64,000 bases of DNA, taken from NCBI GenBank assembly GCA_029565675.1, contig JAKQNP010000021.1, positions 1 to 64,000 on the forward strand, written 5' to 3'. This DNA is from a bacterium. GTDB taxonomy: Bacteria > Zhuqueibacterota > Zhuqueibacteria > Residuimicrobiales > Oceaniaggregativiventaceae. A model generated the notes under the pieces. That model was not told where the DNA came from and ran no database searches. It worked only from the letters and a program-made list of their open reading frames with translations. The translations under genes and the position numbers were made by a program. Below, piece by piece: positions 8,561 to 24,182 of the stretch (positions are counted from its first letter, which is position 1; each line of letters opens with the position of its first letter).

Positions 8561-9943
8561 CTACCTATTCGATGAAGCGATTGGATCTCTCTGGCTATTG
8601 AATTTATCCAGCTTGCTCTTCAGGGTGGTGCGCGGCAGTTTTAAGAGTCTGGCGGCGGCGCTGATGTTGTTGCCGGTTTTCGCCATAGCCCGCTGAATGA
8701 TTTCGCGCTCGTGTGCGTTCATGTACTCATCGAACGGCGGGATCGATGCGGTCATTTTGTCCGCCGATGATTCGAACGGTTTTTTTTGTGCTGCGCCGGG
8801 CTGTTCAGACGGAAATTGCAGCAAATCGACATTTTGCGGCAATGCCAGCATCCGCTGAACCGAATTCTCCAATTCACGCACATTGCCTGGCCAATGATAG
8901 CCCATCATCTTTTGCATCTGCTCACGGTTGATCTGCAAATCCTTTTCGCTGTGTTGGTATTTTTTGATGAAATGGTCGATCAGCAATGGCAGGTCTTCGA
9001 TATGCTCGCGCAACGGCGGCAGGTCGATCGTGAGGATATTCAAACGGTAATAGAGGTCTTCGCGAAACTGTCCTTGATTCACCATTTTGCCCAGGTCGAT
9101 TTTGGTCGCGCAAACCACGCGAAAATCCACCGGAATGGTCTGCTGGCCGCCGATCGGTTGAATCTCCCGTTCCTGCAAGACGCGCAGCAATTTGACCTGC
9201 AAATGGACAGGCAAATCGTCGATGTCGTCGATGAACAGCGTCCCCCCGTGCGCCCGTTCGATGTAACCTTGATGACGCCTGAAAGCGCCGGTGAAGGCGC
9301 CTTTTTCATGACCAAAGAGCTCGCTCTCGAGCAGGCTCTCCGGCAAAACCGCGCAGTTGATGGCGATGAAGGGTCCCTTGTGGCGTTCGCTGAATTGGTG
9401 CAGAAATCTCGCCACCAGCTCTTTGCCGGTTCCGCTTTCGCCCTTGATCATGACGGTGTGGTCGGTGATCGCAACTGAGCGCAGGGTTGCGACCAATTTT
9501 TGCATGACGGTTGAATTGCCGATGATTTCCCGATCTTCATAACGGGTAATGCGTTTTTTTAATTGCTTGTTTTCATGCAGGATTTCATGCAATTGCCTGA
9601 TGTTTTTCAACATGCTCAGCAGTTTATCCGGCGCAAACGGCTTGGTCAAATAGTCGTAGGCGCCGAGTTTCAGCGCTGTTACCGCTGTTTCGACTGTCCC
9701 GTAGCCGGTGATGACGATGACCGTGCTTTCTTTGTTCTTCTCCCTGGCGGTCTTGACGATTTCCAGTCCGTTTATATCGGGCAGCCGCAAATCGGTGATC
9801 ACCACTTCGAAATGATCCTCTTCGAGCCATTCGAGCCCCTCGTTGCCATTTTCGCATGCAATCGCATTGTACCCCTCTTTTTTCAGGGTGTCGCTCAAGG
9901 CAATGCGGGACATCTTGTCGTCTTCAACCAACAGTATCTTCAT
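8561..9943 (-). CDS. Sigma-54-dependent response regulator (NtrC family)
   Basis: A 460-residue enhancer-binding activator. The receiver domain (1-120) has the acidic pair E7/D8/D9, phospho-acceptor D51 (VITDLRLPD), T79 and K101. The AAA+ domain (about 138-370) has Walker A GESGTGKE (168-175), the sigma-54 contact loop GAFTGA (215-220) and Walker B LFIDDID. A Fis-type HTH (about 424-446, ISAAARLLKLPRTTLKSKL) binds DNA. The ATG overlaps the kinase stop by 4 bp, so the pair is translationally coupled. The likely target is the sigma-54-type promoter at 12470, which has palindromes upstream and lies just beyond the other end of this operon. Its input is the membrane kinase next door. Confidence 0.95.
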   Translation of the reverse strand: MKILLVEDDKMSRIALSDTLKKEGYNAIACENGNEGLEWLEEDHFEVVITDLRLPDINGLEIVKTAREKNKESTVIVITGYGTVETAVTALKLGAYDYLTKPFAPDKLLSMLKNIRQLHEILHENKQLKKRITRYEDREIIGNSTVMQKLVATLRSVAITDHTVMIKGESGTGKELVARFLHQFSERHKGPFIAINCAVLPESLLESELFGHEKGAFTGAFRRHQGYIERAHGGTLFIDDIDDLPVHLQVKLLRVLQEREIQPIGGQQTIPVDFRVVCATKIDLGKMVNQGQFREDLYYRLNILTIDLPPLREHIEDLPLLIDHFIKKYQHSEKDLQINREQMQKMMGYHWPGNVRELENSVQRMLALPQNVDLLQFPSEQPGAAQKKPFESSADKMTASIPPFDEYMNAHEREIIQRAMAKTGNNISAAARLLKLPRTTLKSKLDKFNSQRDPIASSNR

Positions 9944-11397
9944 CGGTTTTCCTCGATCGGTAGTGTGACCTGGAAGGAGGTGCCGATCCCGACGGTGCTC
10001 TGTACCTGAATCGCACCGCCATGCATCTCGACGATGCCGAGAGTGACGGATAAACCGAGACCGGTCCCACGGCCCTCCTCCTTGGTGGTAAAAAACGGGT
10101 CGAATATCTTGTCGAGATTTTTATCTGCAATTCCGCAGCCGGTATCGGCGATTGTAAAACCAATGGTATGGTCGTTTTCAGTTGCGGTGGTGATGGTGAT
10201 CTTGCCATCCGCCTCAAAACTGTCCAACGCGTTGAGAAGCAGATTCATCAGCACTTCCTGGATGAGATGCGGATCGGCTTCGATAAGGGGCAACTGGCTC
10301 TCCAGGTGCATTTCGAGCAGGATCCGGCTTTGCTCGATCCGGAATTGCAGCAGCGACAGCACCATGTTGATCTGTTCATTCAAATTGATTTTGGTGACTT
10401 GTTTGGCTTGCTGGTGGGAAAATCCCAGGAGCTTTTGCACGATGAGGGCGATGTGGTCGATCCCCTCATTGGCAAGCGCCAAGTAGCGCACCATTTGCGG
10501 CAGGTTGTGCGGTTCTTTTTCGATGGCATAGAGGCAGCTTTTCAGGCCGTGCAGCGGGTTGTTGATTTCGTGCGCAACGCCGGAAGCCAATCTGCCGATG
10601 GACGCCAATTTTTCGGCCTGGTGCATCTGTTTCTGCGCTTGCAACAGCTGTTTCCTGGATTGGCGGAGACGGTTGGTCATTTTTTCGAAATTGGTCACGA
10701 GAAAACCGATTTCGTCGTCACTGGCCGGCATCTGCATGGGGGCCATGTTGTTCAGATCAAAGTCGTTCATTTCAGCGACAAGCTGGCTCAACGATCGGGT
10801 CAAACGGTCGATGCGAAAATAGATCGCCGTCATCACAATCGCAATAAAGAGGATGGTGAATGAAAAGAGGGTAAAGAAGAGCTGGTTGAGTTTATGGCGC
10901 ATCGTATCGGCATCGAACCCCATCCTGAGCAGTCCCCACGACTTGCTGTGGATCTGCAAAGGCAGTTTGACCTCCAGGATCCAGCCGTAAATTTCAGATT
11001 GATAAATAGTCAAAGCCGATTCCGCCGGATCGACAAGAAGTTTTCCGGTCTTTTCGTTTTCCAGATCGATATTGCTGTAATCGCTGCGAACAACGGCATG
11101 ACCGTTTTGATCATAAAGCTCGATGAATTTAACCTGGTCGTTTTTTGCCATAAAATTGTGAATATGGTTTTCGATAAGACCCTCGGCTTGCAGCAGACCG
11201 CTCTCCTGGTAAATCAACGCATCGAGAATGTAGAGGGAAAAGGTTTGTGCAATCGATAGAGCGTTCCGCCGCTGGTTCTCCACAATCAATGATCGCCATT
11301 GATACAGCACGCTGATCGAAATCAATATCAGCAGGATGATGATCAACAAACCGAGAAAAATCAGGATGCGTGTCTTCAGGCTCTTCATCTGTATCAC
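9940..11397 (-). CDS. Membrane sensor histidine kinase
   Basis: A 485-residue kinase. Transmembrane helices at about 12-32 and 173-193 bracket a periplasmic sensor of about 140 residues (dCache/PAS-like size). Then come a HAMP linker (about 194-250), HisKA with H276 (GVAHEINNPLHG), and HATPase_c with N389, DTGCGI (418-423) and GRGTGLGLS (442-450). The GTG start at 11397 has GAGGAG 5 nt upstream and overlaps the stop of the PhnD-like gene. The order binding protein, kinase, regulator implies that a periplasmic ligand complex is presented to this kinase, which then phosphorylates D51 of the NtrC-type partner. The ligand is not known. Confidence 0.94.
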   Translation of the reverse strand: MIQMKSLKTRILIFLGLLIIILLILISISVLYQWRSLIVENQRRNALSIAQTFSLYILDALIYQESGLLQAEGLIENHIHNFMAKNDQVKFIELYDQNGHAVVRSDYSNIDLENEKTGKLLVDPAESALTIYQSEIYGWILEVKLPLQIHSKSWGLLRMGFDADTMRHKLNQLFFTLFSFTILFIAIVMTAIYFRIDRLTRSLSQLVAEMNDFDLNNMAPMQMPASDDEIGFLVTNFEKMTNRLRQSRKQLLQAQKQMHQAEKLASIGRLASGVAHEINNPLHGLKSCLYAIEKEPHNLPQMVRYLALANEGIDHIALIVQKLLGFSHQQAKQVTKINLNEQINMVLSLLQFRIEQSRILLEMHLESQLPLIEADPHLIQEVLMNLLLNALDSFEADGKITITTATENDHTIGFTIADTGCGIADKNLDKIFDPFFTTKEEGRGTGLGLSVTLGIVEMHGGAIQVQSTVGIGTSFQVTLPIEENR

Positions 11398-12326
11398 GGC
11401 AGCTCCTCGGAAGCAGTCAAAATGGATTCCATCTGGTCATAATCGGTGTCCTGCGCGATGGTAAATCCAAAGAAAAATTCCGGATCCCAATTTTTGACTA
11501 TTTTTTTATCCTCCGGATTGCGAATGTCGATTTTGAGCAGCGCTGTTTTCATCGCGTTGCTGATGGTGGAATCCAGATCGCTTTTGACGATTATCGGAGA
11601 ACCGGGGATTGGATCTGAGACTGCGAGAATGCGGATGCCTTTGTTGGTGAACTCCTCGGCGACCCGGTCTTTGACTGCCCCTGCATCGAAATTGCCGCGC
11701 AACACCTCATAGATGACGGTGTGGTGAAATCCAAAATAGTGCACCGAGTCCAGGTCGCTTGCCCTGAGTCCATGTTCCTGCAGAGCCACTTTCAGCACCC
11801 AATTGCCGGAAAACGAGAGCGGTGAGGGCAGCGCCAGCCGTTTGCCGGCCAGATCGGCGATCGACTGGATCGGGCTGTCGGCGCGGGTAACCAGCACCGA
11901 ATGGAAATAGGGCTGGAATTGACTGTTGAGAGGCTTGAGAAGGCATTTGATGGGATGGCTTTGGCGCGCTTGCAGGTAGAGAAAAGTCCCCAGAAATGCT
12001 GCCTGAATGTCGCCGCGATCGAGTTGCGAAATGGTTTCTTCATACGAGCTGCTCAAGCGCAAGGCAAATTGATAGGGCGTGGCGTCGCTGAGATAGTCCA
12101 TGATCGGCTGATAGCCTTCATAGATCAGGTTGGGAGAAAAACGGGAGATCACGCCGACATAGACTGTGTCTTTTACCGCTCTATCGCCGTTGCTTTCAGC
12201 CAAGGATGGTACGGCGGTGTCGACTGAACTGATGTCCATGATCGAGCGATAGATCAGCGCGCTGAGAGCGATGAAGAGCAGCGAGAGGCCTGAGATAAGA
12301 ATGGCGAAAGGAGATTTCATCTGCAT
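11394..12326 (-). CDS. PhnD-like periplasmic binding protein, probable sensor component
   Basis: A 310-residue protein of the phosphonate/phosphite-binding (PhnD) superfamily. A hydrophobic N-terminal segment (about 8-28) has no clear cleavage site and may act as an anchor. The binding fold follows, with YVGVISRFSPNLIYEGYQPIMDYL, LDRGDIQAAFLGTFLYL, DLAGKRLALPSPLSFSGNW, VLRGNFDAGAVKD and a late SDPIPGSPIIVKSDL. No permease or ATPase adjoins it in this operon; it is fused by a 4-bp overlap to the kinase gene, so a sensory rather than transport role is likely. Known PhnD-type proteins bind oxyanions such as phosphonate, phosphite or phosphate; the specificity here is inferred only from the phosphate genes across the divergent promoter. 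Confidence 0.86.
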   Translation of the reverse strand: MQMKSPFAILISGLSLLFIALSALIYRSIMDISSVDTAVPSLAESNGDRAVKDTVYVGVISRFSPNLIYEGYQPIMDYLSDATPYQFALRLSSSYEETISQLDRGDIQAAFLGTFLYLQARQSHPIKCLLKPLNSQFQPYFHSVLVTRADSPIQSIADLAGKRLALPSPLSFSGNWVLKVALQEHGLRASDLDSVHYFGFHHTVIYEVLRGNFDAGAVKDRVAEEFTNKGIRILAVSDPIPGSPIIVKSDLDSTISNAMKTALLKIDIRNPEDKKIVKNWDPEFFFGFTIAQDTDYDQMESILTASEELP

Positions 12327-12371: not shown

Positions 12372-12427
12372 GTCGAAATTTCGTCGGTTCGATTGTGAAT
12401 TAACGGTTGATTTGACGAAATTTCGTC
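12372..12427. promoter_or_regulatory. Paired palindromes, candidate activator-binding sites
   Basis: GTCGAAATTTCGTC (12372-12385, near-perfect) and GACGAAATTTCGTC (12414-12427, perfect 14-bp palindrome) have centres 42 bp apart, four helical turns. They lie about 45-100 bp upstream of the sigma-54-type promoter, the normal place for enhancer sites of an NtrC-family protein such as the one encoded at 8561-9943. Confidence 0.65.
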
Positions 12428-12469: not shown

Positions 12470-12485
12470 TGGCATGGAATTTGCG
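12470..12485 (+). promoter_or_regulatory. Sigma-54-type (-24/-12) promoter
   Basis: TGGCATGGAATTTGCG matches the TGGCAC-N5-TTGC consensus, with GG (12471-12472) and GC (12483-12484) separated by exactly 10 bp. Transcription would start near 12496, just before the AAGGAG ribosome site of the 12517 gene. Confidence 0.72.
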
Positions 12486-12516: not shown

Positions 12517-13143
12517 ATGGCAGAGATCAAACCTCGTTTCGAATTCCGCGCCTTTGCGCAAAATTTCGGCATCGTTGAGCAAAAGATGCGGGCACTTGGC
12601 CCGGTCGAGCAAATCCGCGAGAGCCTGGAAATCTACATCATGTCTGCCGGCAACAATGAGAACAACTGCAAAATTCGCAACAATTTGATGGACATCAAGG
12701 TGTTTGTCCAGAATCAAAAGGGGCTGGAGCAATGGAATCCGCGTATGAAGGGCGAATTCCCGATGTCGGTCGAGGTGATCCGCAAGGAGGTCTTTCCGGC
12801 CTTTGGTGTGACGATGCCGGACTTGAAACGGGATGTCTATACTCTGTCGCAATACATCGATGAGATCATCAAACCGCATCCTGATCTGGCGGCAGTCAAT
12901 GTCTTCAAGCGACGAATGGGTTTTACCATCAACGGTTGCATCGCCGAGTTGGCCGATGTCTATATCAATGGCGCCAAAATCATGACCGCCAATCTGGAGT
13001 CAGTGGATATCGACGCCATCCTCGCGGCAAAAAAAATGGTCGCTTTGAGCGATTACGAGAATGTCAATTATCTGCTCGCCATCAAGCGAGTCATCGGTAT
13101 GGAGCCATTGGCCGAATCATCGTTCTATCGGGTGAAATTGTAA
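12517..13143 (+). CDS. Unknown protein, possibly a divergent CYTH-like domain
   Basis: A 208-residue cytoplasmic protein, the first gene behind the sigma-54-type promoter. The ATG at 12517 follows GAAGGAG by 5 nt; an earlier in-frame start at 12469 would overlap the promoter. I do not recognise the family with certainty. Its N-terminal half follows the strand order of a CYTH tunnel fold: RFEFRAF (7-13), RESLEIYIM (34-42), CKIRNNLMDIK (51-61) and EVI, with charged residues pointing the same way as in the true CYTH protein encoded 22 bp downstream. The canonical ExExK is replaced by E-F-R. A diverged triphosphate- or polyphosphate-binding paralogue is a reasonable guess; structure comparison would decide. 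Confidence 0.6.
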   Translation: MAEIKPRFEFRAFAQNFGIVEQKMRALGPVEQIRESLEIYIMSAGNNENNCKIRNNLMDIKVFVQNQKGLEQWNPRMKGEFPMSVEVIRKEVFPAFGVTMPDLKRDVYTLSQYIDEIIKPHPDLAAVNVFKRRMGFTINGCIAELADVYINGAKIMTANLESVDIDAILAAKKMVALSDYENVNYLLAIKRVIGMEPLAESSFYRVKL

Positions 13144-13165
13144 ATCCAACAACGAGGCGATCTTT

Positions 13166-13633
13166 ATGGCAAAGGAAATCGAACGCAAATTTTTGGTCAA
13201 AGGGGAATTCGCTCATCAGGCCCATAAAAAGGTGCGCATCATTCAGGGTTATCTCTCTTCGGTGCCCGAACGAACAGTCCGGGTGCGGGTCAAGGGCGAT
13301 AAAGGCTATCTTACCATCAAGGGGATTGGTAATGCTTCCGGCGCCAGTCGCTTTGAATGGGAAAGAGAGATCCCGCTGCAAGAGGCAGAGGAATTGATGA
13401 AACTCTGTGAACCCGGTGTGATCGACAAAACCCGTTATCAGATCAAAGCAGGGAAATTTGTGTTCGAAGTGGATGAATTTCACGGTGAAAATCAGGGTTT
13501 GATCGTCGCCGAAATCGAATTGACCGATGAGAAAGATTCCTTTGACAAACCCTCCTGGCTGGGCAAAGAGGTCACCGGCGATGAAAAGTACTACAACGCC
13601 ATGTTGATGAAAAAGCCGTATACCCGCTGGTGA
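13166..13633 (+). CDS. CYTH domain protein, probable triphosphate tunnel phosphatase
   Basis: A 155-residue CYTH (triphosphate tunnel metalloenzyme) protein. The ExExK signature is intact at the N-terminus (E4, E6, K8 in KEIERKFLV). It is followed by R39/R41 (TVRVRVKG), K52 (TIKG), R62/E64/E66 (SRFEWERE), DKTRYQIK and EVDEF. Small bacterial members hydrolyse inorganic triphosphate (PPPi) with Mg2+ or Mn2+. This one is the usual single-domain length, about 155 residues, like the Clostridium and Nitrosomonas enzymes. It sits 22 bp after the 12517 gene and upstream of anion and phosphate transporters, which suits a role in phosphate metabolism. Confidence 0.88.
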   Translation: MAKEIERKFLVKGEFAHQAHKKVRIIQGYLSSVPERTVRVRVKGDKGYLTIKGIGNASGASRFEWEREIPLQEAEELMKLCEPGVIDKTRYQIKAGKFVFEVDEFHGENQGLIVAEIELTDEKDSFDKPSWLGKEVTGDEKYYNAMLMKKPYTRW

Positions 13634-13792
13634 GTCATAAAGCATAAGGGCAAAGGCAAATCGAGCAGCTCCTGCATCCGATCCGACGGCCTATCCGGCA
13701 GGGCGAATTTGTCGCAAAATTTTTATCCCCTCTGTTTCCATCTGGCATGATCTGAAATCAGTTCGACGGGGCCTGAAACCCAAAAGGATGCC

Positions 13793-15388
13793 ATGACACC
13801 CTACGATCCTCTGGATATGACAAATTACCGCATCGAGCGGTTGCCGAAACGGCAAAAGACCCGGTTTGAGAAATGGCTTGCCCTGTCCGGCCCATTTCTG
13901 GCTGTTGCTGCATTTATTCTCTTTGGTTTTCTGATCAAACTGGCGTTCCTGCAGGATATCGATCCGACCCAGTTGGTTTCGGAACCGGCCAAAACCGCTT
14001 ACGACAAGCTGGGGTCACTGGGATTTACCCGCAGCAACGAACTCATGCTGGGCATCTTTTTGGCCAGTCTTATTCTTTGGGTCACAGAAGCCATCCCCAA
14101 CTATTTGACCTCGCTGATTCTCATCATTTCTCTGGTACTCAGCGGTGTGTTGGGCGAAAAACAAGCTTACGCTCAATTGGGACACGAAGTGATGTGGCTC
14201 AACATCATGTCGTTCGTGCTGGCGAGCATGTTGGTGACCACGGGAGTGGCAAAGCGTTTTGCGCTCTGGTTCATCCTCAAGTTTGGCAAGAACGCGAGCT
14301 TTATTTTTCTGAGTTTTATCGTGATCAATCTGGTCCTGTCGGCTTTTATCTCAGCCACGACCGCCAAAGCGGCTATCCTGTTGCCGATTTTTATGGTGAT
14401 CGCCGCTATCTATGGCGCGCAGGGAGGGGAGGGCCGCAACAATTTCGGCCGCAGCATTGTTTTGCAGAATCTTTTCCAGATCAATATCGGTGCCGGCGGT
14501 TTCATGACCGGCTCTGGCGCCAATTTGCTGGCCGTTGCCCTGATCAGCGGTGCGATCGGCAGCAAAGTCTTTTTCTCTGACTGGATGGTGGCGATGCTGC
14601 CGATCGTCATCGGCACCATGCTGCTCGGTTATTTTCTGGCGATGAAGGTCTTTTTTCCGTTGTCGCCGGAAAAGCGGTTGCCGCAGATCGAGGGCGGCAT
14701 GCAGCGGCTGCGCGAGGAATACCAGAAACTCGGTCGGGTGGATGTTCAGGAGATCAAAGCGGTTGTCATCTTTATCGCCATCCTCACCATGTGGGCAACC
14801 GATCGCATCCACGGCATCAGCCCAACCGCTGTGGCGTTTGTCGGTGCCATCATCGCCCTGTTGCCGCGCATCGGCATCCTCAACTGGAACGAGGTAGATA
14901 TTCCATGGCATCTCATGCTCTTCTCGGCAGGCGCCTACACGCTGGGAGCAGGCCTTTCGGCAACCGATCTGCCCTCTATCAGTGTCAATGCTTTTTTTGA
15001 CCATGCCGGTATCGGCGACAACACTCCATTTTGGATTCTCTATCTGTTGTTGACCGGCGTTATGCTCTTCAGCGCGCTCGTATTCCAGTCAAAAACCATG
15101 CGCGCAATGATCTTTATCCCCATCGCCATCGGAGTTGCGACTCGTTTTGGCTACAGCGTGCTGAGTCTGGCGCTGCCGGTTGCATTTTTGATCGAGCATG
15201 TCTATGTGTTGCCTTTCAACAGCAAACCAGCAGCCCTGCTCTACGAAACTGACCGCTACAGCCTCGGAGATGCGTTTCGTTTTGGTTTTACGATGATGGT
15301 GATCGCCTGGGTGCTGATCATCATCGCCGGCGAAACCTGGTTCAGAACTCTTGGCATCACCCCGCATGGTGTGTTTGATCTATTCTGA
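13793..15388 (+). CDS. DASS/SLC13-family sodium:anion symporter
   Basis: A 531-residue integral membrane protein with about 11-12 hydrophobic segments. The two DASS-type substrate and sodium loops are recognisable: ISATTAKAAILLP with GSGANLLA in the first half, and VLPFNSKPAALLY in the second. The family carries dicarboxylates, citrate, sulfate or, in some SLC13-like branches, phosphate. The degenerate SNT motifs (SATT, FNSKP) do not allow a choice, though the neighbours suggest an inorganic or phospho-anion. The start ATG has AAGGATG upstream. A 159-bp gap from the CYTH gene leaves room for a separate promoter, but I see none that is clear. Confidence 0.88.
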   Translation: MTPYDPLDMTNYRIERLPKRQKTRFEKWLALSGPFLAVAAFILFGFLIKLAFLQDIDPTQLVSEPAKTAYDKLGSLGFTRSNELMLGIFLASLILWVTEAIPNYLTSLILIISLVLSGVLGEKQAYAQLGHEVMWLNIMSFVLASMLVTTGVAKRFALWFILKFGKNASFIFLSFIVINLVLSAFISATTAKAAILLPIFMVIAAIYGAQGGEGRNNFGRSIVLQNLFQINIGAGGFMTGSGANLLAVALISGAIGSKVFFSDWMVAMLPIVIGTMLLGYFLAMKVFFPLSPEKRLPQIEGGMQRLREEYQKLGRVDVQEIKAVVIFIAILTMWATDRIHGISPTAVAFVGAIIALLPRIGILNWNEVDIPWHLMLFSAGAYTLGAGLSATDLPSISVNAFFDHAGIGDNTPFWILYLLLTGVMLFSALVFQSKTMRAMIFIPIAIGVATRFGYSVLSLALPVAFLIEHVYVLPFNSKPAALLYETDRYSLGDAFRFGFTMMVIAWVLIIIAGETWFRTLGITPHGVFDLF

Positions 15389-15413
15389 GGATTTCATTCA
15401 GCAAAGGTTGATC

Positions 15414-16058
15414 ATGTCACTCTTTTTCATGAAACACAAGCAACTTGAAGCGCAGATCGACGAGTATTATGATGTTCTGATCCAGGGCGGGCTGTTGTTC
15501 AAACAAGGCATCAGGTTTTATCTGCAGGGAAGACTCGACGAGTTTGAAACGCGGTTGCAGGAACTCTGCGCGATGGAAGAAAAGTGCGACGACTTGCGTC
15601 GGCACATCGAAACCAGCCTCTATTCGCACACTCTCATCCCCGAGTCGCGCGGCGATGTGTTGGGCTTACTGGAAAGCTCGGACAAGGTGTTGAACCGGAT
15701 CGCTGAAACGCTGATGCAAATTTCCGTCGAAATCCCGGACATTCCCGACGATCTGGATCCGCTTTACAGCGACCTGGCGGAATATGCCATCGCGACCGTG
15801 GATGGCATGGTGAAAGCCATCCGCGCCTATTTCCGCGACCTGGCGATGGTGCGCGACAACGTCAACAAGGTTTTGTTTTACCGCAAAGAAACCAACAAGA
15901 CAGCAGAGAAATACAAACGCGCAGTATTCCGCCGTGAGCTGCGTTTGAGCCATAAAATTCACCTGCGCTATTTTGCTTATCACGTTGAGCTGATCGCTGA
16001 AGAAGCTGAGGATGTTTGTGACCGTCTGTCCATTGCAACCATCAAACGTTACGTCTAA
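15414..16058 (+). CDS. DUF47 / PhoU-like protein
   Basis: A 214-residue all-helical protein of the DUF47 (Pit-accessory, PhoU-like) family, encoded 12 bp before the Pit permease as is typical. It is hydrophilic with no signal, and shows the family's helical bundle with paired acidic patches (EEKCDDLRRHIE near 55-66 and EEAEDVCDRLS near the C-terminus) expected to bind metal ions. DUF47 proteins regulate the cognate phosphate permease. The ATG at 15414 is chosen over an upstream frame that would overlap the DASS gene. Confidence 0.9.
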   Translation: MSLFFMKHKQLEAQIDEYYDVLIQGGLLFKQGIRFYLQGRLDEFETRLQELCAMEEKCDDLRRHIETSLYSHTLIPESRGDVLGLLESSDKVLNRIAETLMQISVEIPDIPDDLDPLYSDLAEYAIATVDGMVKAIRAYFRDLAMVRDNVNKVLFYRKETNKTAEKYKRAVFRRELRLSHKIHLRYFAYHVELIAEEAEDVCDRLSIATIKRYV

Positions 16059-16070
16059 GAGCTGTTGATC

Positions 16071-17360
16071 ATGATCTGGTTTTTTTTGTTGAGCGGTCTT
16101 TTCCTGGGGTGGTCGCTGGGTGCCAACGATGCAGCGAATGTGTTCGGCACCGCGGTAGGATCGCGTATGGTCAGATTTAAAACGGCCGCTTGCATCGCCA
16201 GCCTGTTCGTGATTCTTGGAGCGGTTTTTGGCGGTCACGGCACCACCAAAACTCTGACCGCTCTGGGAGCGGTCAATGCCATGGCCGGATCCTTCACCGT
16301 TGCACTCATGGCCGGGGTTACCGTGGCATTCATGACCCGAACCAATTTGCCGGTATCGACCACCCAGGCCATCGTCGGTGCCATCGTCGGCTGGAATTTT
16401 TTTACCCACTCATCCACGGACTATAACATTTTGGGAAAAATTGTGGCCACGTGGGTCATGTCGCCTTTAATTTCGGCGCTGTTTGCCATGGCGCTCTATC
16501 TCCTTTTCAAAAAATACCTGGACAAAGCCCCGATTCACATGCTGCAACGCGATGCCTATACGAGGGCTGGACTGATTGTGGTCGGTGCCCTGGGTTCCTA
16601 TGGCCTCGGCGCCAACAACATCGCCAACGTGATGGGTGTATTCGTATCCGCTTCGCCATTCAGCAATATCGACTTGTTCGGCATCACTACTTTTCATGGC
16701 ACCCAGCAGCTGTTCCTGTTGGGCGCACTGGCGATTGCGGTCGGCATTTTTACCTATTCCTATCGCATGATGGATACATTGGGCAATGTGATCTTTAAGC
16801 TTACCCCGGTCCTGGCGCTGATCGTGGTCCTGGCCCATTCTATGGTGCTGCTCATTTTTGCGTCAAAAGGTTTAAAAGTGTTTATGCAGTCTCTTCACCT
16901 GCCCACCTTGCCATTGGTGCCGGTTTCGAGTTCACAGGCCATCATCGGCGCAATTCTGGGAGTCGGCATCATCAAGGGAGGCAGGGGAGTGAATTATAAA
17001 CTGCTGGGCAAAATTGCCCTGGGCTGGATTCTCACCCCGGTCGTGGCCGCCGCATGCACATTCGTCGCCTTGTTTTTTGTTCAGAATGTTTTTGAACAGC
17101 CCGTGATTCTGAAGACAACCGTCCCGGCTGAGCAACGACAAGAGGTAAATGCCGAGAACGGCAACAGCCCGACAGCAACTCTGCCGGCTGAAATTAACCA
17201 GGCGCTTGGGGTGAAAGAGATGTGGTCGCCGATTTTTCACCAACCCTGGGACTCGTCTGTCTATTCTCCGATCAGTCGGCCGGCTGTTTTTCCCAAAACT
17301 GAATCTATAACCGACAACCGTCAAATTCACCACCATCCATTAAAAAAACGAGAGGAGTGA
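16071..17360 (+). CDS. pit: Pit-family inorganic phosphate permease
   Basis: A 429-residue PiT/PHO4 transporter. The duplicated family signature appears as GANDAANVFGTAVGSRMV near the N-terminus and GANNIANVMGVFV near residue 180. About 10 membrane segments surround a middle cytoplasmic loop, and a polar C-terminal extension of about 75 residues (after about 355) is unusual and of unknown use. It moves phosphate with H+ or Na+. The ATG at 16071 is preferred over TTG at 16065 because the upstream AAGAG has proper spacing. The porin gene begins 2 bp after its stop, so DUF47, Pit and porin are one unit. Confidence 0.93.
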   Translation: MIWFFLLSGLFLGWSLGANDAANVFGTAVGSRMVRFKTAACIASLFVILGAVFGGHGTTKTLTALGAVNAMAGSFTVALMAGVTVAFMTRTNLPVSTTQAIVGAIVGWNFFTHSSTDYNILGKIVATWVMSPLISALFAMALYLLFKKYLDKAPIHMLQRDAYTRAGLIVVGALGSYGLGANNIANVMGVFVSASPFSNIDLFGITTFHGTQQLFLLGALAIAVGIFTYSYRMMDTLGNVIFKLTPVLALIVVLAHSMVLLIFASKGLKVFMQSLHLPTLPLVPVSSSQAIIGAILGVGIIKGGRGVNYKLLGKIALGWILTPVVAAACTFVALFFVQNVFEQPVILKTTVPAEQRQEVNAENGNSPTATLPAEINQALGVKEMWSPIFHQPWDSSVYSPISRPAVFPKTESITDNRQIHHHPLKKREE

Positions 17361-17362
17361 TC

Positions 17363-18640
17363 ATGAACAAACGCAACCATTTGTTTGAGTTTACGGTGGC
17401 CCTGTTCTTGCTGTTCGCCGCTGTGCTGACGGCACAGGACGCCAAAGTGCCAGGTGGAGACAACAAGATTCCGCTCGGTACGGAAGTCCGCAACGGCAAG
17501 CTGTTGTTCGAGAGTGAAGACAAATCGTTTCTGTATTGGTTCGACTCGCGCATCCAGTTTGACGGCGCATTTTATTTTGGCAGCAAAAACGAGATGAGCA
17601 ACGGCACCCATTTTCGCAGATTGGTCTTCGCGATGAAAACCTCTTTTTATAACGACTGGCAGGCGGAATTCGATTTCGATCTGGCTGAAGGAGAGGCGGG
17701 CGAGCGGGGAATCGAATTGCGCGATATGTGGATCAAGTATACGGTCCCCAATGCCAACATGTCTTTTCAGGTCGGCCATTTCAAAGAACCCTTTGGCCTG
17801 GAACGGTTGAACAGCTCGCGGCTGCTGCTCTTTTTGGAACGCGCAACACCCTCCAGCGCTTTTGCCATGGGCCGCAGAGTCGGTTTTTCCGGCCGTTACT
17901 GGAACAACGTTGGCCAGATCACCGGCGCGATCATGGGACACGAGCCCGGCACACGCATCGATAAGGGACAGCGCGACGAGGGTTATTCGACCAATGTGCG
18001 CCTCACGCTGGCTCCCGTGAACCATCACGGCAAAAATCTGCATATCGGTGGCGCCTGGTCCTACAAAATCCCGGATGCGGTCTCTGATTTGCCCGAAAAC
18101 ACGATCGAGATCAGTTCCAGACATGAAACTTATGTGAGCAATCCCAAATTGCTGCACACCGGCGACATCAAAGATGTCAACTATTACACGCGTTACGGTG
18201 CAGAAATGCTGGCTGTCCATGGCCCCTTGTATTTTCAAACCGAAGCGATGGGATTGACCGTCGAGAGATGGTACGATCAACCGCAGGTCAAGCTCAAAGG
18301 CGGCTATGCCATGCTCGCCTGGGTGGTAACCGGCGAGACCCGCTACTATTATATCGATGAAGGCGAAATTGGCCCGATCGAAAAACCGAAACACTCCTGG
18401 GGTGCTTTGGAATTGGCCGCCCGGTTCAGCACCCTGGATCTGAATGATCTGGACGCCGGTATTCACGGCGGCAAATCCCTGCAGTGGATGCTGGGCGTGA
18501 ACTATTATCCCAATCCCAATATCAAACTGCAGTTCAATTACTCCCAGGTCGATTTTGACCAGTATGCCACGCGCAAGGGCAATCTGATCGGCGACGATGA
18601 TCATTCGTTCATCCAGTTCAGATTCCAGGCTTCATTCTAA
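17363..18640 (+). CDS. Phosphate-selective porin (OprP/OprO-like)
   Basis: A 425-residue outer-membrane barrel. A signal peptide (about 1-24, ending LTAQ) is followed by the OprP/OprO pattern: FDSRIQFDGAFYF, then a first strand pair with FRRLVFAMKTSFYNDWQAEF, VGHFKEPFGLERL, and a terminal aromatic strand FIQFRFQASF typical of BamA-recognised porins. OprP-type trimers bring phosphate or pyrophosphate across the outer membrane. Lysine ladders cannot be checked from sequence alone. GAGGAG lies 6-7 nt before the ATG. Its fusion-like proximity to Pit supports phosphate as substrate. Confidence 0.9.
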   Translation: MNKRNHLFEFTVALFLLFAAVLTAQDAKVPGGDNKIPLGTEVRNGKLLFESEDKSFLYWFDSRIQFDGAFYFGSKNEMSNGTHFRRLVFAMKTSFYNDWQAEFDFDLAEGEAGERGIELRDMWIKYTVPNANMSFQVGHFKEPFGLERLNSSRLLLFLERATPSSAFAMGRRVGFSGRYWNNVGQITGAIMGHEPGTRIDKGQRDEGYSTNVRLTLAPVNHHGKNLHIGGAWSYKIPDAVSDLPENTIEISSRHETYVSNPKLLHTGDIKDVNYYTRYGAEMLAVHGPLYFQTEAMGLTVERWYDQPQVKLKGGYAMLAWVVTGETRYYYIDEGEIGPIEKPKHSWGALELAARFSTLDLNDLDAGIHGGKSLQWMLGVNYYPNPNIKLQFNYSQVDFDQYATRKGNLIGDDDHSFIQFRFQASF

Positions 18641-18656
18641 AAGAGGAGTCATTCTC

Positions 18657-19160
18657 ATGAAAAATCGCATTGTTTTGCTTGTTGTTGCCACTCTCGTGGC
18701 TTTGTGTCTGATGTCCTGCTCGCGCGAGGCGCCGGCGATCATGGAGCCGATCGTGTTGGGAGAAGTCATGATGAACGAAGCCTATTCCCGAGGGGTACCT
18801 GATACTCCTGATTGGGTCGAGCTCTATAATTCCTCCAGTGTCGCCGTCAGTTTGACCGGGTACAAGATCTATGATCCAGGCGGCAATGCCGGCAGCAAGC
18901 CCAAAAAAGAGTTTCCCGCAGATGCTTCGATCCCCGGCAAGGGATATTATGTGATCGTCGTTGATACACCGGATGAAAGCGGTTTTGGTCTGTCCAGCGG
19001 CGGCGACGAAATCTGGCTTGAAGACAACACCGGCACGGTCATCGACTATGTAACAATCACGGCGATGTCAGAAACCCAATCCTACTCGCGGATCCCAAAC
19101 GGCAGTGAGACCTGGCAACTCTCCAACACCATCACCCGTGGCGCTGAAAATCAACCATAA
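18657..19160 (+). CDS. Lamin-tail-domain lipoprotein
   Basis: A 167-residue lipoprotein (lipobox LMSC, Cys about 21) with one lamin-tail (LTD) domain: MMNEAYSRG, DWVELYNSSS, LTGYKIYDPGG, YYVIVVDT, FGLSSGGDEIWL, and closing ITRGAENQP. Bacterial LTDs are immunoglobulin-like surface modules often found with extracellular hydrolases. It is nearly identical in layout to each of the three repeats in the 20035 gene, so the two are paralogues. AAGAGGAG precedes the ATG, 16 bp after the porin stop. Confidence 0.85.
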   Translation: MKNRIVLLVVATLVALCLMSCSREAPAIMEPIVLGEVMMNEAYSRGVPDTPDWVELYNSSSVAVSLTGYKIYDPGGNAGSKPKKEFPADASIPGKGYYVIVVDTPDESGFGLSSGGDEIWLEDNTGTVIDYVTITAMSETQSYSRIPNGSETWQLSNTITRGAENQP

Positions 19161-19210
19161 TGAGGGGGGGGCGTCTGTGACTGGCGCAGGCGCCTCTTTA
19201 GACCACAGTT

Positions 19211-19960
19211 ATGAATAAAAGTCTGCTTTTTTTGGTCTGTATTTGTTGTTTGCGGGGATGCTCACGTCCGGAAGCAGCCCTGGAACCCGAATCGACAGAT
19301 TTGACCGTCCTGCAGCCCATTGCCGCGATCGATCTGGCACCCAATATCCCTGAACCTTCGGGATTGGCCTTCAATCGCAAAAACAATACGCTGATGGTGG
19401 TCTCTGACGCGAAATCCGATATCTTTGAAATCGATTTTTCCGGATCGATCAAAAACAAGATCGCCACAACCAGCACCGATCTGGAGGGCGTCGCCATAAC
19501 CCAGAACGGCGATACCCTCTATGTGGTTGAAGAGCGCAATCAACGGGTGGTCTCGTATGCCCAAAACGGGCAACGCCTCAATTCCATTACTGTGCGTGTA
19601 GCCACAAGCGATAACAGCGCCCTGGAAGGCATTGCCATCGACAATCGCCGTCATCTCTTTGTGCTCAACGAAAAGAGCCCGCGTTTGCTGCTCGAATTTG
19701 TCGGTTCTGCTGAGGTCAGCAGAAAAGAAATAACTGCGGTAAAGGACCTCTCAGGCATCTGCTACGATGAATCGAACGACGGTTTGTGGATCATCAGCGA
19801 TGAGTCCCAAAAGATCATCTCGATTTCCAAAACCGGTATTTTGCTGGGAGAGTGGCTGGTCCCCTTTGATAAAGGTGAAGGAATCGCTTTTGCCAACGGC
19901 AAGATGTATATTGTCAATGACGACGACGGCAAACTCTATGTATTCGATGTCCCGAGTTGA
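19211..19960 (+). CDS. SdiA-regulated/phytase-like beta-propeller lipoprotein
   Basis: A 249-residue protein with a lipobox (LRGC, C17) and a six-bladed propeller of the SdiA-regulated (YjiK) type, related to 3-phytase propellers. Blade motifs are EPSGLAFNRKNNTLMVVSD, DLEGVAITQNGDTLYVVEE, ALEGIAIDNRRHLFVLNE, DLSGICYDESNDGLWIISD and GEGIAFANGKMYIVND. The acidic loop residues (SD, EE, NE, SD, ND) could bind calcium. A phosphoesterase role would suit the phosphate locus but is inference; many members are catalytically untested. Confidence 0.8.
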   Translation: MNKSLLFLVCICCLRGCSRPEAALEPESTDLTVLQPIAAIDLAPNIPEPSGLAFNRKNNTLMVVSDAKSDIFEIDFSGSIKNKIATTSTDLEGVAITQNGDTLYVVEERNQRVVSYAQNGQRLNSITVRVATSDNSALEGIAIDNRRHLFVLNEKSPRLLLEFVGSAEVSRKEITAVKDLSGICYDESNDGLWIISDESQKIISISKTGILLGEWLVPFDKGEGIAFANGKMYIVNDDDGKLYVFDVPS

Positions 19961-20034
19961 ATGATCATTGGGGATAGCGCTTGCACGTCAGATTTAAATT
20001 CTCTAATTTACAGATTATTAACCAGGAGGAAATC

Positions 20035-21588
20035 ATGAATAGAAACTTGTTATTGGCTGCTTTTCTGTTTGCTCTGGTCTTTTTTGTCTGGACCAGCGGC
20101 TCATTTGCCGCCATCGTGCTAAACGAAGCCTATAGCCGCGGCACGGAAGAGAGTCCGGATTGGGTGGAAGTCTACAACGATACAGATGAACCGGTCGACA
20201 TCAGCGGCTATAAGATTTATGACGGCGGCGGACAATCCGGCAGCAAACCCAAAAAAGAGTTCCCCGCTGGCGCGGTGGTGCCGGCTTTTGGTGTTTATGT
20301 CATTACCGTTGACGACACCGGCGCGGACAGCGATTTTGGACTTTCCAGTGGCGGCGACGATATCTGGTTGGAAAACGCTGGCGGCACGGTTATTGACCAT
20401 GTCACCATCCCAGCTATGGCAGAAACCGAATCATATCAAAGAATTCCAGACGGGGGCGATTGGAAGCTGGTGAGCCCCATTACCCGCGGCACCTCGAATA
20501 TCCCGGTCAAGATGAACGAAGCCTACTCGCGGGGCAGCGATGAAAGTCCCGACTGGATCGAGCTTTACAACAGTGCCTCTGATACCGTCGACATCAGTGG
20601 ATATCGGATTTATGATAACGGCGGTCAACAGGGCACCAAGCCCAAAAAAGTGGTTCCCGACGGCACCACAATTTTGCCCAAGGGATTCTTTGTTATCGTG
20701 ACGGATAATACCGGCGATGATGCGGATTTTGGCCTGGGCAGCGGCGGCGACAAGGTGTGGTTGGAAGACAGCACCGGTGTTGTTGTCGATTCTGTCAGTT
20801 TCGGCGCCCTGGAACCGAACCAAAGCTACAGCCGAATCCCGGACGGAGGTACCTGGCGGACGGTCAGCAATGTGACACGCGGTACGTCAAATGCACCGGT
20901 TGTGATGAACGAAGCCTACTCCAGAGGCAGTGATGAAGATCCGGACTGGATCGAACTCTACAACCACAGCGATAACACCGTCGATATCAGCGGCTACCGG
21001 ATTTACGACAATGGCGGCCAGCAGGGCACCAAGCCCAAAAAAGTGGTTCCTGCCGGCACCACAATTCTGCCCGGTGGCTTTTTTGTTATCGTGACCGATA
21101 ATACGGGCGATGACGCGGATTTTGGCCTCAGCAGCGGCGGCGACAAGGTATGGTTGGAAGATTCTTCGGGTGTCATTGTCGACTATGTTGAATTCGGGGC
21201 ACTGGAACCGACTCAAAGCTACAGCCGCATTCCAGACGGCGGTGTCTGGCAAGTGGTGAGCAACATCACCCGCGGTGCCTCCAATGAAGGCGGAACCGCT
21301 GTCCACGGACGCGATGCGGTGATCACCGATTTCAGCCTGCAGCAGAATTATCCCAATCCCTTCAATCCGACCACCCGGATTGCCTTCAATCTGGAAAAGG
21401 CCGGGAATGTCCGCCTGGCGATCTATAACCTTTCCGGACAGTTGATCAAAGAGGTTGTTAACGCCAAACTGGCTTCCGGCAGCCATCAATTCACTTTCGA
21501 TGGCGCCGGTCTTGCCAGCGGAGTTTATCTCTATTCGCTGCAAACCTCAGAGGCCAAGGTCAGCAAACGCATGCTGTTGATGAAATAG
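20035..21588 (+). CDS. Secreted triple lamin-tail-domain protein with C-terminal sorting domain
   Basis: A 517-residue exported protein. A signal peptide (1-25, ending SFA) precedes three lamin-tail domains of about 134 residues each (about 26-160, 160-295, 295-430), with repeated NEAYSRGxxExPDW, DISGYxIYDxGGQ and ITRGxSN signatures. The C-terminus (about 440-517) is the FlgD-like Por/T9SS-type sorting domain (LQQNYPNPFNPTTRIAF, VYLYSLQ, SKRMLLMK). It should be secreted or surface-held. AGGAGG stands 6-7 nt before the ATG. Domain copies 2 and 3 are very similar in DNA, pointing to recent internal duplication. The exact role is unknown. Confidence 0.88.
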   Translation: MNRNLLLAAFLFALVFFVWTSGSFAAIVLNEAYSRGTEESPDWVEVYNDTDEPVDISGYKIYDGGGQSGSKPKKEFPAGAVVPAFGVYVITVDDTGADSDFGLSSGGDDIWLENAGGTVIDHVTIPAMAETESYQRIPDGGDWKLVSPITRGTSNIPVKMNEAYSRGSDESPDWIELYNSASDTVDISGYRIYDNGGQQGTKPKKVVPDGTTILPKGFFVIVTDNTGDDADFGLGSGGDKVWLEDSTGVVVDSVSFGALEPNQSYSRIPDGGTWRTVSNVTRGTSNAPVVMNEAYSRGSDEDPDWIELYNHSDNTVDISGYRIYDNGGQQGTKPKKVVPAGTTILPGGFFVIVTDNTGDDADFGLSSGGDKVWLEDSSGVIVDYVEFGALEPTQSYSRIPDGGVWQVVSNITRGASNEGGTAVHGRDAVITDFSLQQNYPNPFNPTTRIAFNLEKAGNVRLAIYNLSGQLIKEVVNAKLASGSHQFTFDGAGLASGVYLYSLQTSEAKVSKRMLLMK

Positions 21589-21616: not shown

Positions 21617-21650
21617 AAGCCCGCGGTTTGAATACCGCGGGCTTTTTTTT
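21617..21650 (+). terminator. Rho-independent terminator of the phosphate locus
   Basis: An AGCCCGCGGT stem pairs with ACCGCGGGCT across a short loop, followed by eight or more T residues. It lies about 30 bp after the last gene of the plus-strand run. Confidence 0.93.
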
Positions 21651-21992: not shown

Positions 21993-24182
21993 TCAGGCTT
22001 GCGACGAAACATCTCCCGCATTGTAGACCAGAATCACATCGCCGGGCAGGGCGACGATTTCATTCAGCATCGGATCGAGTTCGGTTTCGATGTCGCCGTC
22101 CGGTGGTTCAAAACCGGCGAACAGCACCGCAGACGGCTGCAACTGTTCGCGCACCGCTTGCAGCGGGTCATCGGTCGGCAGAACAACGATTTCGGCTTGA
22201 ATGCGCGCCAAAGTCAGCGTTTTCTCCAGCTCTTCTCTGACGTTCTGCAAATCCGCCTTGGGGGCTACTGTGCGCAGGATGCGCAGCGGGTTGTGTCGCC
22301 ATTCGCGGTTTTGCCGCAGGAGAAAACCGACCAGCAACATCAATTCGCCGTTCCTGGCGTCGTTCCACCAAACATTGATGGCGCCGCTCGGCACTTGCCA
22401 CTCTTCCTGCGCCTGGCAGCATCCCACGACGAACATGCTTTTCTTCATTTTTTTGGCCAGACTGAGAATGAGCGCAAATACGGTGCTTTTGCTCGCTTCC
22501 TGGCTCCAGCCGATCAACAGGGTGTTGGGTTTGAGTCCGCCGAGCCCATGGCATTGCAACAGAGCTTTGAGGGCATCGGAAAAGCTTTCATCCGCCACCA
22601 CCACGGGAAAGGCGGGCAGTTCTTCTTCGCGGATGAATTTGCGCATCAGTTTCTCCGCTTCCTGCCGGCGTACGAAGCGATCTTCCAGATCCCCGCTGAT
22701 GATCTGCGCCAGGGAAACAATGCCGCGATCTGCTGACAGATGACAGGCATAGCGAACCAGGTGGAGCCGGTTGTAGGCGCCGCCGCTAAGGGCGAGAATG
22801 ACCGGCCGCCAGTTCTTCGGATGGTAGTCCTCTTTCTCCAGGCGCAAAAGCGCCTTGCGCGCCCGTTGAAATGCCAGGCCGCTGTGCAGATCACCCCACT
22901 GGACCATGATTTCCGCCCGCGTGATGAACAGAAACATTGCACCTGCAAGCAGGATCGATATCGCACTCCAGAGGGGATTGATCAGGAACATAACCACCAA
23001 TGATCCGGCTGCTCCCAGCAGGGCTGCAGACCAGTGGTGCAGATGGAAAGCCGGACGAAAGCTGGGATTGTGGGTAATCATCTCGTAAAAACAGGCCAGA
23101 TTGACCGTGCCATAGGTCAACAGAAAAAACATGGTGATCACCGGAGCGACCGTGTCGAGATCACCCGCCAAAATGCCCAACTGGGCGATGATGAAGGTCA
23201 GGATGATCGCCCGCCGCGGTTCGTTCGACGGTCCGCTGCCCCACCCCAGATGCCTCAACCCTTTGAACACATTGTCACGCGCAAAAGCCTGGATGATGCG
23301 CGGCGCACCCATCATGCTGCCCAGTGCGGATGACAGGGTGGCGCTAAACACCCCGGCGTAGATCAAGGCGCCAGACCAGGCTGTCTCTTTCATGACAAAG
23401 CGGTCGCTGACGAGAACATCCCGGCTGTTGCTCCCTGCCAGAAATATTGCGATAATTACATAGAGTACTGTGGTGAATCCAACAGCCATCAGCGTTCCCC
23501 GCGGGATGGCGCGGCTGGGTTCACGCAGATCGCCGGACATGTTGACGCCGGCCATGATTCCGGTGACCGCCGGAAAAAACAGAGCGAAAACCGTAAAAAA
23601 GGTGTGTTTTTCGGTCCAAGTGGCTGACCAATTGACTTGCAAATTCATGGCCGAAAAGTTTAGCGCTGCACCGACCATGAACGAGGAAAGCGAGAGCAGC
23701 AATATCGCCAGGATGCCGTATTGGAGGCGGATGGTCCATCCGGCACCGATAAAGACCGATACAAAAACCACCACGTTGGTCAACGTGGCCAACAGCCGGA
23801 AGGAGATCCCAAGATTCGGAAACGCGGAAAAAACAGCTTCGCTAAAGCCCACAACGTAGAGAGTCACCGCTACCGCCTGGGCGATGTAGAAAAAAACGGC
23901 GATAACGCCGCCAAATTCCACTCCCAAACTCCGACTGATCAAGTAATAGGCGCCCCCGCCCTTGACTTGCATGTTGGTGGCAATCGAAGAAAGCGACAGA
24001 CCCGTGATCAATGAAATGGAAGTGGCGGCGAGCAAAATCAACAGCGCCTGTCCAAGACCGGCATAACCGACCACCTGGGCATAGCGCAAAAAGACGATAA
24101 CGCCGAGAATGGTCAGCACGCTCGGCGTAAAAACACCGCCGAACGTGCTGAATTTTGTTGGTTGGGAATCAGAATTTTTCAA
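21993..24182 (-). CDS. APC-superfamily permease, cation-chloride-cotransporter-like
   Basis: A 729-residue protein. The first 440 residues hold about 12 hydrophobic segments with the amino acid-polyamine-cation and CCC-type pattern (FSTFGGVFTPSVLTILGVIVF, KGGGAYYLISRSLGVEFGG, FFPAVTGIMAGVNMSGDLR). The last 290 form a soluble cytoplasmic domain (PVILALSGG, LLIGWS, LFAGFEPPDGD) resembling the C-terminal domain of sodium/potassium-chloride cotransporters and their USP-like folds. The ion specificity cannot be read off. It is a single gene on the minus strand, convergent with the phosphate locus. Confidence 0.87.
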   Translation of the reverse strand: MKNSDSQPTKFSTFGGVFTPSVLTILGVIVFLRYAQVVGYAGLGQALLILLAATSISLITGLSLSSIATNMQVKGGGAYYLISRSLGVEFGGVIAVFFYIAQAVAVTLYVVGFSEAVFSAFPNLGISFRLLATLTNVVVFVSVFIGAGWTIRLQYGILAILLLSLSSFMVGAALNFSAMNLQVNWSATWTEKHTFFTVFALFFPAVTGIMAGVNMSGDLREPSRAIPRGTLMAVGFTTVLYVIIAIFLAGSNSRDVLVSDRFVMKETAWSGALIYAGVFSATLSSALGSMMGAPRIIQAFARDNVFKGLRHLGWGSGPSNEPRRAIILTFIIAQLGILAGDLDTVAPVITMFFLLTYGTVNLACFYEMITHNPSFRPAFHLHHWSAALLGAAGSLVVMFLINPLWSAISILLAGAMFLFITRAEIMVQWGDLHSGLAFQRARKALLRLEKEDYHPKNWRPVILALSGGAYNRLHLVRYACHLSADRGIVSLAQIISGDLEDRFVRRQEAEKLMRKFIREEELPAFPVVVADESFSDALKALLQCHGLGGLKPNTLLIGWSQEASKSTVFALILSLAKKMKKSMFVVGCCQAQEEWQVPSGAINVWWNDARNGELMLLVGFLLRQNREWRHNPLRILRTVAPKADLQNVREELEKTLTLARIQAEIVVLPTDDPLQAVREQLQPSAVLFAGFEPPDGDIETELDPMLNEIVALPGDVILVYNAGDVSSQA

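Follow-up and report, generated by a model that had tools for sequence, protein, structure and literature searches.

Which substrate is handled by a gene row that places two predicted triphosphate-tunnel proteins beside inner-membrane transporters, an OprP-type porin and surface proteins, and how is this row controlled? We addressed this question in a window of 64,000 nucleotides (positions 1 to 64,000 of contig JAKQNP010000021.1, assembly GCA_029565675.1) from a bacterium of the phylum Zhuqueibacterota. An earlier note on this DNA had described seven plus-strand genes at 13793-21588 as an outer-to-inner-membrane phosphate uptake unit served by a phytase-like surface protein. The phosphate uptake part is supported, since across loci a PiT transporter with its DUF47 partner keeps company with the OprP-type porin, and a Na/Pi cotransporter can take the PiT slot, but the phytase is not. 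A role in phosphorus acquisition is well supported by gene content and slot swaps, as far as sequence can tell, and we consider it probable that the locus takes up phosphate and that condensed phosphate is dealt with in the cytosol. The locus also appears to be self-regulated and sigma-54-controlled, with several candidates still standing for its exact cargo.

The seven genes, their order, the gaps between them (25, 12, 2, 16, 50 and 74 bases along the row, from the coordinates) and the terminator behind them were all recovered as previously described, using ORF coordinates, Pfam and a terminator scan. Their main Pfam assignments lie above the cut-offs: Na_sulph_symp, DUF47, PHO4, Porin_O_P, LTD, SdiA-regulated, and three LTDs with a type IX sorting tail. 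The terminator-like hairpin at 21617-21644 (plus strand, 11 pairs followed by a T run) has the most pairs of any site in the scan. The limits of the unit had been drawn too narrowly, however. Two plus-strand genes ahead of the DASS gene, at 12517-13143 and 13166-13633, had been missed, so that the operon spans 12517-21588, and so had a divergent three-gene regulatory operon at 8561-12326. Comparison with related genomes, which the earlier note had proposed, showed that the gene order recurs in many other loci: a tblastn search of 73 fetched loci with ten proteins of the window revealed a shared order in many of them, extending upstream to the 12517 and 13166 genes and the divergent binding protein.

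For a systematic comparison 60 loci, found partly by searching with the family of the 12517 protein, were annotated and 52 kept after removal of 8 duplicates. They originated from a PiT search (20 loci), a porin search (7), searches with the new tunnel protein (24) and the window itself (1). This origin biases the frequencies of PiT and porin upward; none of the searches was made with the CYTH/Ppx neighbour. The loci are not all independent, several being closely related. Slots were counted where enough downstream DNA was available, at least 3.5 kb for DASS/Tct (45 loci), at least 7 kb for PiT and porin (40) and at least 9.5 kb for the lamin-tail domain (LTD) and propeller proteins (34). Gene content, conservation, slot swaps, promoter motifs and predicted folds were read directly from these data.

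The first gene of the operon (12517..13143, plus strand) encodes a new-family protein with a predicted triphosphate-tunnel (TTM) fold. Apart from one chance-level row, Pfam gave no match at E <= 10, not even to CYTH, NCBIfam gave none at E <= 0.1, and the solved chains gave no notable profile match. An AlphaFold2 model was built from 26 sequences, with a mean pLDDT of 93.0. The top Foldseek matches of this model were thiamine triphosphatase, YgiF and other CYTH enzymes (5a64, E 9.9e-7; TM about 0.5), and VIA-align ranked TTM enzymes best as well: 1yem with Z 12.6 (149 aligned, root mean square deviation 3.7), 5a64 with 11.7 and SaTTM with 11.6, Mediator subunits of tunnel fold following near Z 9. 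The model thus predicts the eight-stranded TTM fold. Within 51 sequences of the family, R7, E9, R11, R34, E38, K52, R54, D59, K61, K131, R133, E144, E161 and others are conserved at 97% or more. CYTH enzymes bind their two metals through ExExK and ExE motifs (PMC8233210, in the part available). The 12517 protein differs from them in having RxExR instead of ExExK and a single Glu (E161) near the last long strand, a comparison made by strand order and not by residue-level superposition. One acidic residue per metal pair thus seems to be gone and the basic phosphate-gripping set kept. Because of this apparent loss, compared by strand order, binding would be a better guess than hydrolysis for this protein.

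The second gene (13166..13633, plus strand) encodes a CYTH protein of the inorganic-triphosphatase type (PF01928, 62.5 bits, cut-off 23.2), matching 3typ and 2fbl (NE1496, which we take to be NeuTTM) with E about 1e-17. In 16 aligned rows E4, E6, K8, R39, R41, K52, E116 and E118 are invariant, and the protein carries both the ExExK and ExE motifs as defined for CYTH inorganic triphosphatases in the accessible portion of PMC8233210. The Nitrosomonas enzyme is a specific inorganic triphosphatase with a proposed Tyr-28/Lys-52 dyad (PMC3440374, partial text); at about these positions the 13166 protein has a nearly invariant Y29 and the invariant K52. The association of the two tunnel proteins is constant: the 12517 homolog is directly followed, among annotated genes, by CYTH in 49 of the 52 loci, at a median gap of 18 bases, and by an exopolyphosphatase-like protein (Ppx) in the remaining 3 (L034, L124, L129), together 52/52. 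All three Ppx calls were confirmed by Pfam, the L034 protein scoring 227 bits with the NCBIfam exopolyphosphatase model, under its cut-off of 307. One locus (L113, genome G420) has a second tunnel-CYTH pair adjoining the regulator genes.

Three genes for inner-membrane transport follow. The first (13793..15388, plus strand) encodes a DASS/SLC13-type anion transporter (PF00939, 178.2 bits, cut-off 27; TIGR00785, 192.3 bits, just under the cut-off of 198.6), with SLC13 and plastid dicarboxylate carriers as solved relatives. Na+-coupled DASS carriers bear two SNT motifs; here SAT and SKT occupy these positions, and the SKTMR replacing the second motif is present in 24/24 aligned sequences and 42/43 hits. 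In the 45 loci counted for this slot, DASS was found in 39 and TctABC in 5 (L019, L022, L080, L129, L130), and L010 has DASS on the opposite strand. The TctABC parts were confirmed by Pfam in L019, L022, L080 and L129, the L130 call coming from tblastn. Next come a DUF47 (PhoU-like) protein (15414..16058, plus strand; PF01865, 60.3 bits) and a PiT-family transporter (16071..17360, plus strand; PF01384, 191.3 bits, cut-off 33.7; nearest solved chain 6l85). PiT stands alone in its slot in 35 of 40 loci, beside a Na/Pi cotransporter in L130 and replaced by one in L080; these two loci (2/40) lend support to phosphate as the substrate. Three observations on these genes are recorded here. A second PiT-like stretch lies within a 753-residue frame (G000:C6:9045-10448). 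A protein of about 480 residues with no Pfam or NCBIfam family occurs among the CYTH, DASS and Tct genes of L022 (2844-4289), L017, L041, L107 and L108. Another of about 230 residues, with a signal, a C-terminal hydrophobic stretch and no family, is positioned between DASS and DUF47 or porin in L029 (8647-9324), L032, L034, L038, L119 and L131.

The porin gene (17363..18640, plus strand; PF07396, 210.9 bits, cut-off 20.9) encodes an OprP/OprO-type protein, for which OprP and OprO of Pseudomonas, porins for phosphate and diphosphate, were the only solved relatives found; this type is present in 38 of 40 loci. As in OprP, the positions aligned to R34, R60, D94, S124, S125 and R133 (OprP numbering counted by hand on the alignment) are invariant in 24 rows, and the position of K121 is mostly Arg. 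Functional roles in OprP are also attributed to R34, R60, S124, S125 and K121. Orthophosphate-selective OprP has Tyr at 62 and 114, and OprO also differs from it at both positions, which are presumably those of the OprP/OprO double exchange. Unlike OprP proper, the porin family is Tyr-free at both in the 24 rows, the second being an invariant Lys. The double exchange reverses the phosphate/diphosphate preference of OprP and OprO, and the roles of OprP R133 and D94, which correspond to the invariant R160 and D121 of the porin, are likewise known (PMC12653301, in the part available). In two Balneolales a second, weak Porin_O_P protein is found downstream of the locus, after an InlB-repeat protein (L009:13179-14225, L013:12621-13748).

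On the reading that we consider probable, in which phosphate is taken up and condensed phosphate is processed in the cytosol, the OprP-type channel would pass phosphate through the outer membrane, PiT with DUF47 would take orthophosphate through the inner membrane and DASS, or TctABC elsewhere, would serve as a second polyanion transporter. Of the two cytosolic triphosphate-tunnel proteins, CYTH would hydrolyse tripolyphosphate, a place that exopolyphosphatase would take in some loci. Ligand, substrate, direction and hydrolysis are what we infer in this scheme. A further step, import of intact condensed phosphate (pyrophosphate or short polyphosphate) via DASS/TctABC, is put forward tentatively, as a possibility that we rate below an even chance. 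A widened, more basic OprP-type channel would then admit pyrophosphate or short polyphosphate, and either DASS, which has Lys/Arg where the SNT motifs would stand, or TctABC would carry the chain over the inner membrane. The tunnel protein would bind this chain, CYTH or exopolyphosphatase would cut it to phosphate, and PiT with DUF47 would balance the orthophosphate. The PhnD-like sensor described below would read external condensed phosphate, and the LTD and propeller proteins would catch mineral or polyphosphate at the surface.

Two alternatives concern the DASS slot. According to the first, which we regard as rather unlikely, the locus handles orthophosphate only, DASS being a second phosphate transporter and the tunnel proteins with CYTH/Ppx having housekeeping or regulatory tasks, such as reading internal tripolyphosphate. 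The yeast DASS proteins Pho87, Pho90 and Pho91 are phosphate transporters (PMC7381174, partial text). L107 and L108 fit this alternative, having DASS in genomes where a genome search found no PiT anywhere. It leaves unexplained both the TctABC found in the DASS slot in 5/45 loci and the tunnel protein with CYTH/Ppx that heads the unit in 52/52 loci. According to the second, to which we assign a similarly low likelihood, PiT or Na/Pi carries phosphate and DASS/TctABC a di- or tricarboxylate such as citrate, moved perhaps by exchange or as a metal chelate freeing mineral phosphate. Most characterised DASS and Tct systems do move carboxylates, and both the solved relatives of DASS and its replacement by TctABC agree with this. 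Still, no enzyme for citrate or another carboxylate recurs in the locus, CYTH/Ppx stays unexplained, and L107 and L108 would have no phosphate importer.

Returning to uptake of phosphate with processing of condensed phosphate, several findings weigh against it. TctABC in the DASS slot points equally to carboxylates. Three of 40 loci (L107, L108, L119) have neither PiT nor Na/Pi. The Na/Pi replacement of PiT in L080 holds for the locus only, because another PiT sits elsewhere in that genome, as one does in the genome of L119. The best NCBIfam match of the window PiT is a sulfate permease (CysP-type, NF053884; 81.1 bits, cut-off 400). Kinship in sequence between the 12517 protein and CYTH was sought and none was found (hhalign probability 0.25%). 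Between the CYTH and DASS genes lie a gap of 159 bases in the window and a weak terminator-like site (13696-13714) from the terminator scan. Finally, RpoN was not found in the genome of L034 (G085) or in G067, the latter 56% complete.

The last three genes encode surface proteins. A lipoprotein with a single LTD (18657..19160, plus strand; PF00932, 53.7 bits; lipobox in the sequence) is followed by a beta-propeller lipoprotein of the YjiK/SdiA-regulated type (19211..19960, plus strand; PF06977, 87.6 bits, cut-off 21; model pLDDT 90.8) and by a protein with three LTDs and a type IX sorting tail (20035..21588, plus strand; PF00932 in three stretches; PF18962, 41.3 bits; TIGR04183, 43.8 bits, cut-off 23). 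LTD and propeller proteins occur together in 28 of 34 loci and are thus linked to the unit. Their surface role is read from sequence features: they would sit on the outer surface, one via its type IX tail, and the scavenging or anchoring that the earlier note ascribed to them is hypothetical. Twelve propeller residues are invariant in 20 rows (C17, E48, D66, D90, E92, E108, E139, E154, D179, D197, E223 and D237), and Cys17 with the Asp/Glu set suggests a lipoprotein with a metal-binding centre. The LTDs are of two types, the second occupying the same slot in L017, L019, L080, L107 and L129. A basic G-x-KPK motif was considered as a general phosphate-binding mark of LTDs and rejected: it is present in 84 of 110 distinct segments (33 loci), the second type is without it, and the comparison with other LTDs of the window's genome covered four.

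That the phosphate uptake is fed by a surface phytase-like enzyme, as the earlier note had it, we now consider improbable. The label has some basis in a match to PF13449 (59.2 bits), and the central invariant acidic residues could bind metal. This match is secondary to the higher-scoring SdiA-regulated one, no PF02333 or other beta-propeller-phytase family was matched at E <= 0.1, and of the solved proteins matched over full length, E. coli YjiK (3qqz) is closest in sequence. YjiK was also the best fold match of the model, a comparison that covered the top 50 of the 1784 rows with E <= 0.001 and does not by itself decide against a phytase.

The divergent operon at 8561-12326 encodes the putative regulators. 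On the minus strand lie an NtrC/AtoC-type sigma-54 response regulator (8561..9943; best NCBIfam matches AtoC and NtrC, all below cut-offs; syntenic), a membrane histidine kinase (9940..11397; weak sCache, HAMP, along with HisKA and HATPase, by Pfam; syntenic) and a PhnD-like oxyanion-binding protein, the putative sensor (11394..12326; PF12974, 194.5 bits). Upstream DNA reaches 4.5 kb or more in 37 loci, 33 of which have the regulator genes. Upstream of the 12517 gene we identified two palindromes, GTCGAAATTTCGTC and GACGAAATTTCGTC, spaced by 42 bases, at 12372..12385 (13/14 to GACGAAATTTCGTC) and 12414..12427 (14/14), and on the plus strand a sigma-54 (-24/-12) site TGGCAT-N5-TTGC (TGGCATGGAATTTGC, 12470..12484). 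Among the first 20 loci TGGCAY-N5-TTG was found in 15 and a palindrome of at least 10/14 in 20, the means over 300 resamplings being 0.08 and 3.5. The palindrome consensus was derived from these same 20 loci, so that only the 22 later regulator-bearing loci test it: there the sigma-54 site was found in 14 and the palindrome in 20, and 500 resamplings gave means of 0.06 and 4.4 with maxima of 1 and 11. L006, L008 and L022, which have short upstream DNA, were left out of this test. Among the 7 loci without visible regulators, the sigma-54 site was found in 1 (L007, whose contig begins 264 bases before) and a palindrome of at least 10/14 in 3. In the window's genome only the two sites of the locus match the palindrome pattern exactly. 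A wider regulon was rejected, nine one-mismatch sites being found against five for a reversed control pattern. RpoN could be identified in 47 of the 49 genomes that encode the new tunnel protein, among them the window's own.

Judged from these motifs, the regulatory circuit is well supported. The PhnD-like protein would bind a phosphate-like oxyanion in the periplasm and signal via the kinase to the NtrC-type regulator, which, from the anatomy and its conservation, would bind the twin palindromes and fire the sigma-54 promoter at 12470. The nearest solved chains to the binding protein are PtxB and ArrX, with AioX also among its nearest solved relatives. Y95, G113, S173 and H201 are invariant in 20 rows, Y95, S173 and H201 being kept pocket positions. 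Where ArrX has Cys, all 20 rows have Gly; AioX is absent from the alignments shown. That another oxyanion such as arsenate, sulfate or selenite is the true cargo is very improbable: sets of binding protein, kinase and NtrC-type regulator with PhnD-like sensors are known for arsenic, ArrX and AioX are near relatives, and the porin and PiT weakly match ExtI of selenite/tellurite operons (26.8 bits, cut-off 150) and the sulfate permease, but the arsenic cysteine is missing (AioX binds arsenite via Cys106; PMC5908839, in the part available), redox or resistance genes do not recur among the examined loci, and the Na/Pi and Ppx swaps point to phosphorus.

Within the phylum, 12 of the 82 genomes, including the window's, encode the new tunnel family, which was not found in the sole other genome of the genus or in two of the family. 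The class to which L033's genome belongs has it in 27 of 391 genomes, two of them with weak matches, and the class that includes L009's genome in 11 of 244; the weak matches G229 and G244 and the fragment G575 were left out of closer study. This patchy spread fits loss or transfer. No description of such a locus was found in an open-access literature search. Elsewhere in the window, an amino-acid-permease/SLC12-type transporter (21993-24182) is convergent with the locus, and a fusion of an NMT1-type binding protein with an OmpA domain (4196-5695) adjoins two coiled-coil-like proteins.

The best-known route of phosphate uptake is PhoBR-Pst, to which the locus would be a sigma-54-driven alternative, patchy over several phyla and bringing a new triphosphate-tunnel family into constant company with a polyphosphate-cutting enzyme. 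If its cargo is condensed phosphate, bacterial uptake of pyro- and polyphosphate from water and sediment becomes testable, as does the role of bacterial lamin-tail proteins. The adjacent DUF47 and PiT recall phosphate transport pairs of this kind, from which the locus differs in the second PiT signature, GANN in the window protein, and in a first signature that varies among relatives. With the CYTH/TTM enzymes NeuTTM, ThTPase, YgiF and SaTTM, the 12517 protein shares the predicted fold and conserved basic residues, and the 13166 protein ExExK, RxR, K52 and ExE. A further comparison is with the yeast VTC polyphosphate polymerase, which has accessory tunnel subunits. Two different tunnel proteins are adjacent in the locus, and tunnel domains of Vtc2 and Vtc4 type are among the fold matches of the 12517 protein (3g3o, Z 8.6; 3g3r, Z 7.8), at Z values near the level of common arrangements; unlike VTC, the locus has no SPX or membrane part. 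The closest regulatory parallel lies in the arsenic modules AioXSR, ArrXSR and ArxXSR, which combine a binding protein, a kinase, an AtoC-family regulator and RpoN promoters (PMC5908839, partial text). The locus likewise has a PhnD-like binding protein, a kinase, an AtoC/NtrC regulator and an RpoN promoter, with a binding protein that is free of the arsenic cysteine and regulators that would control transporters and tunnel proteins instead of a molybdoenzyme.

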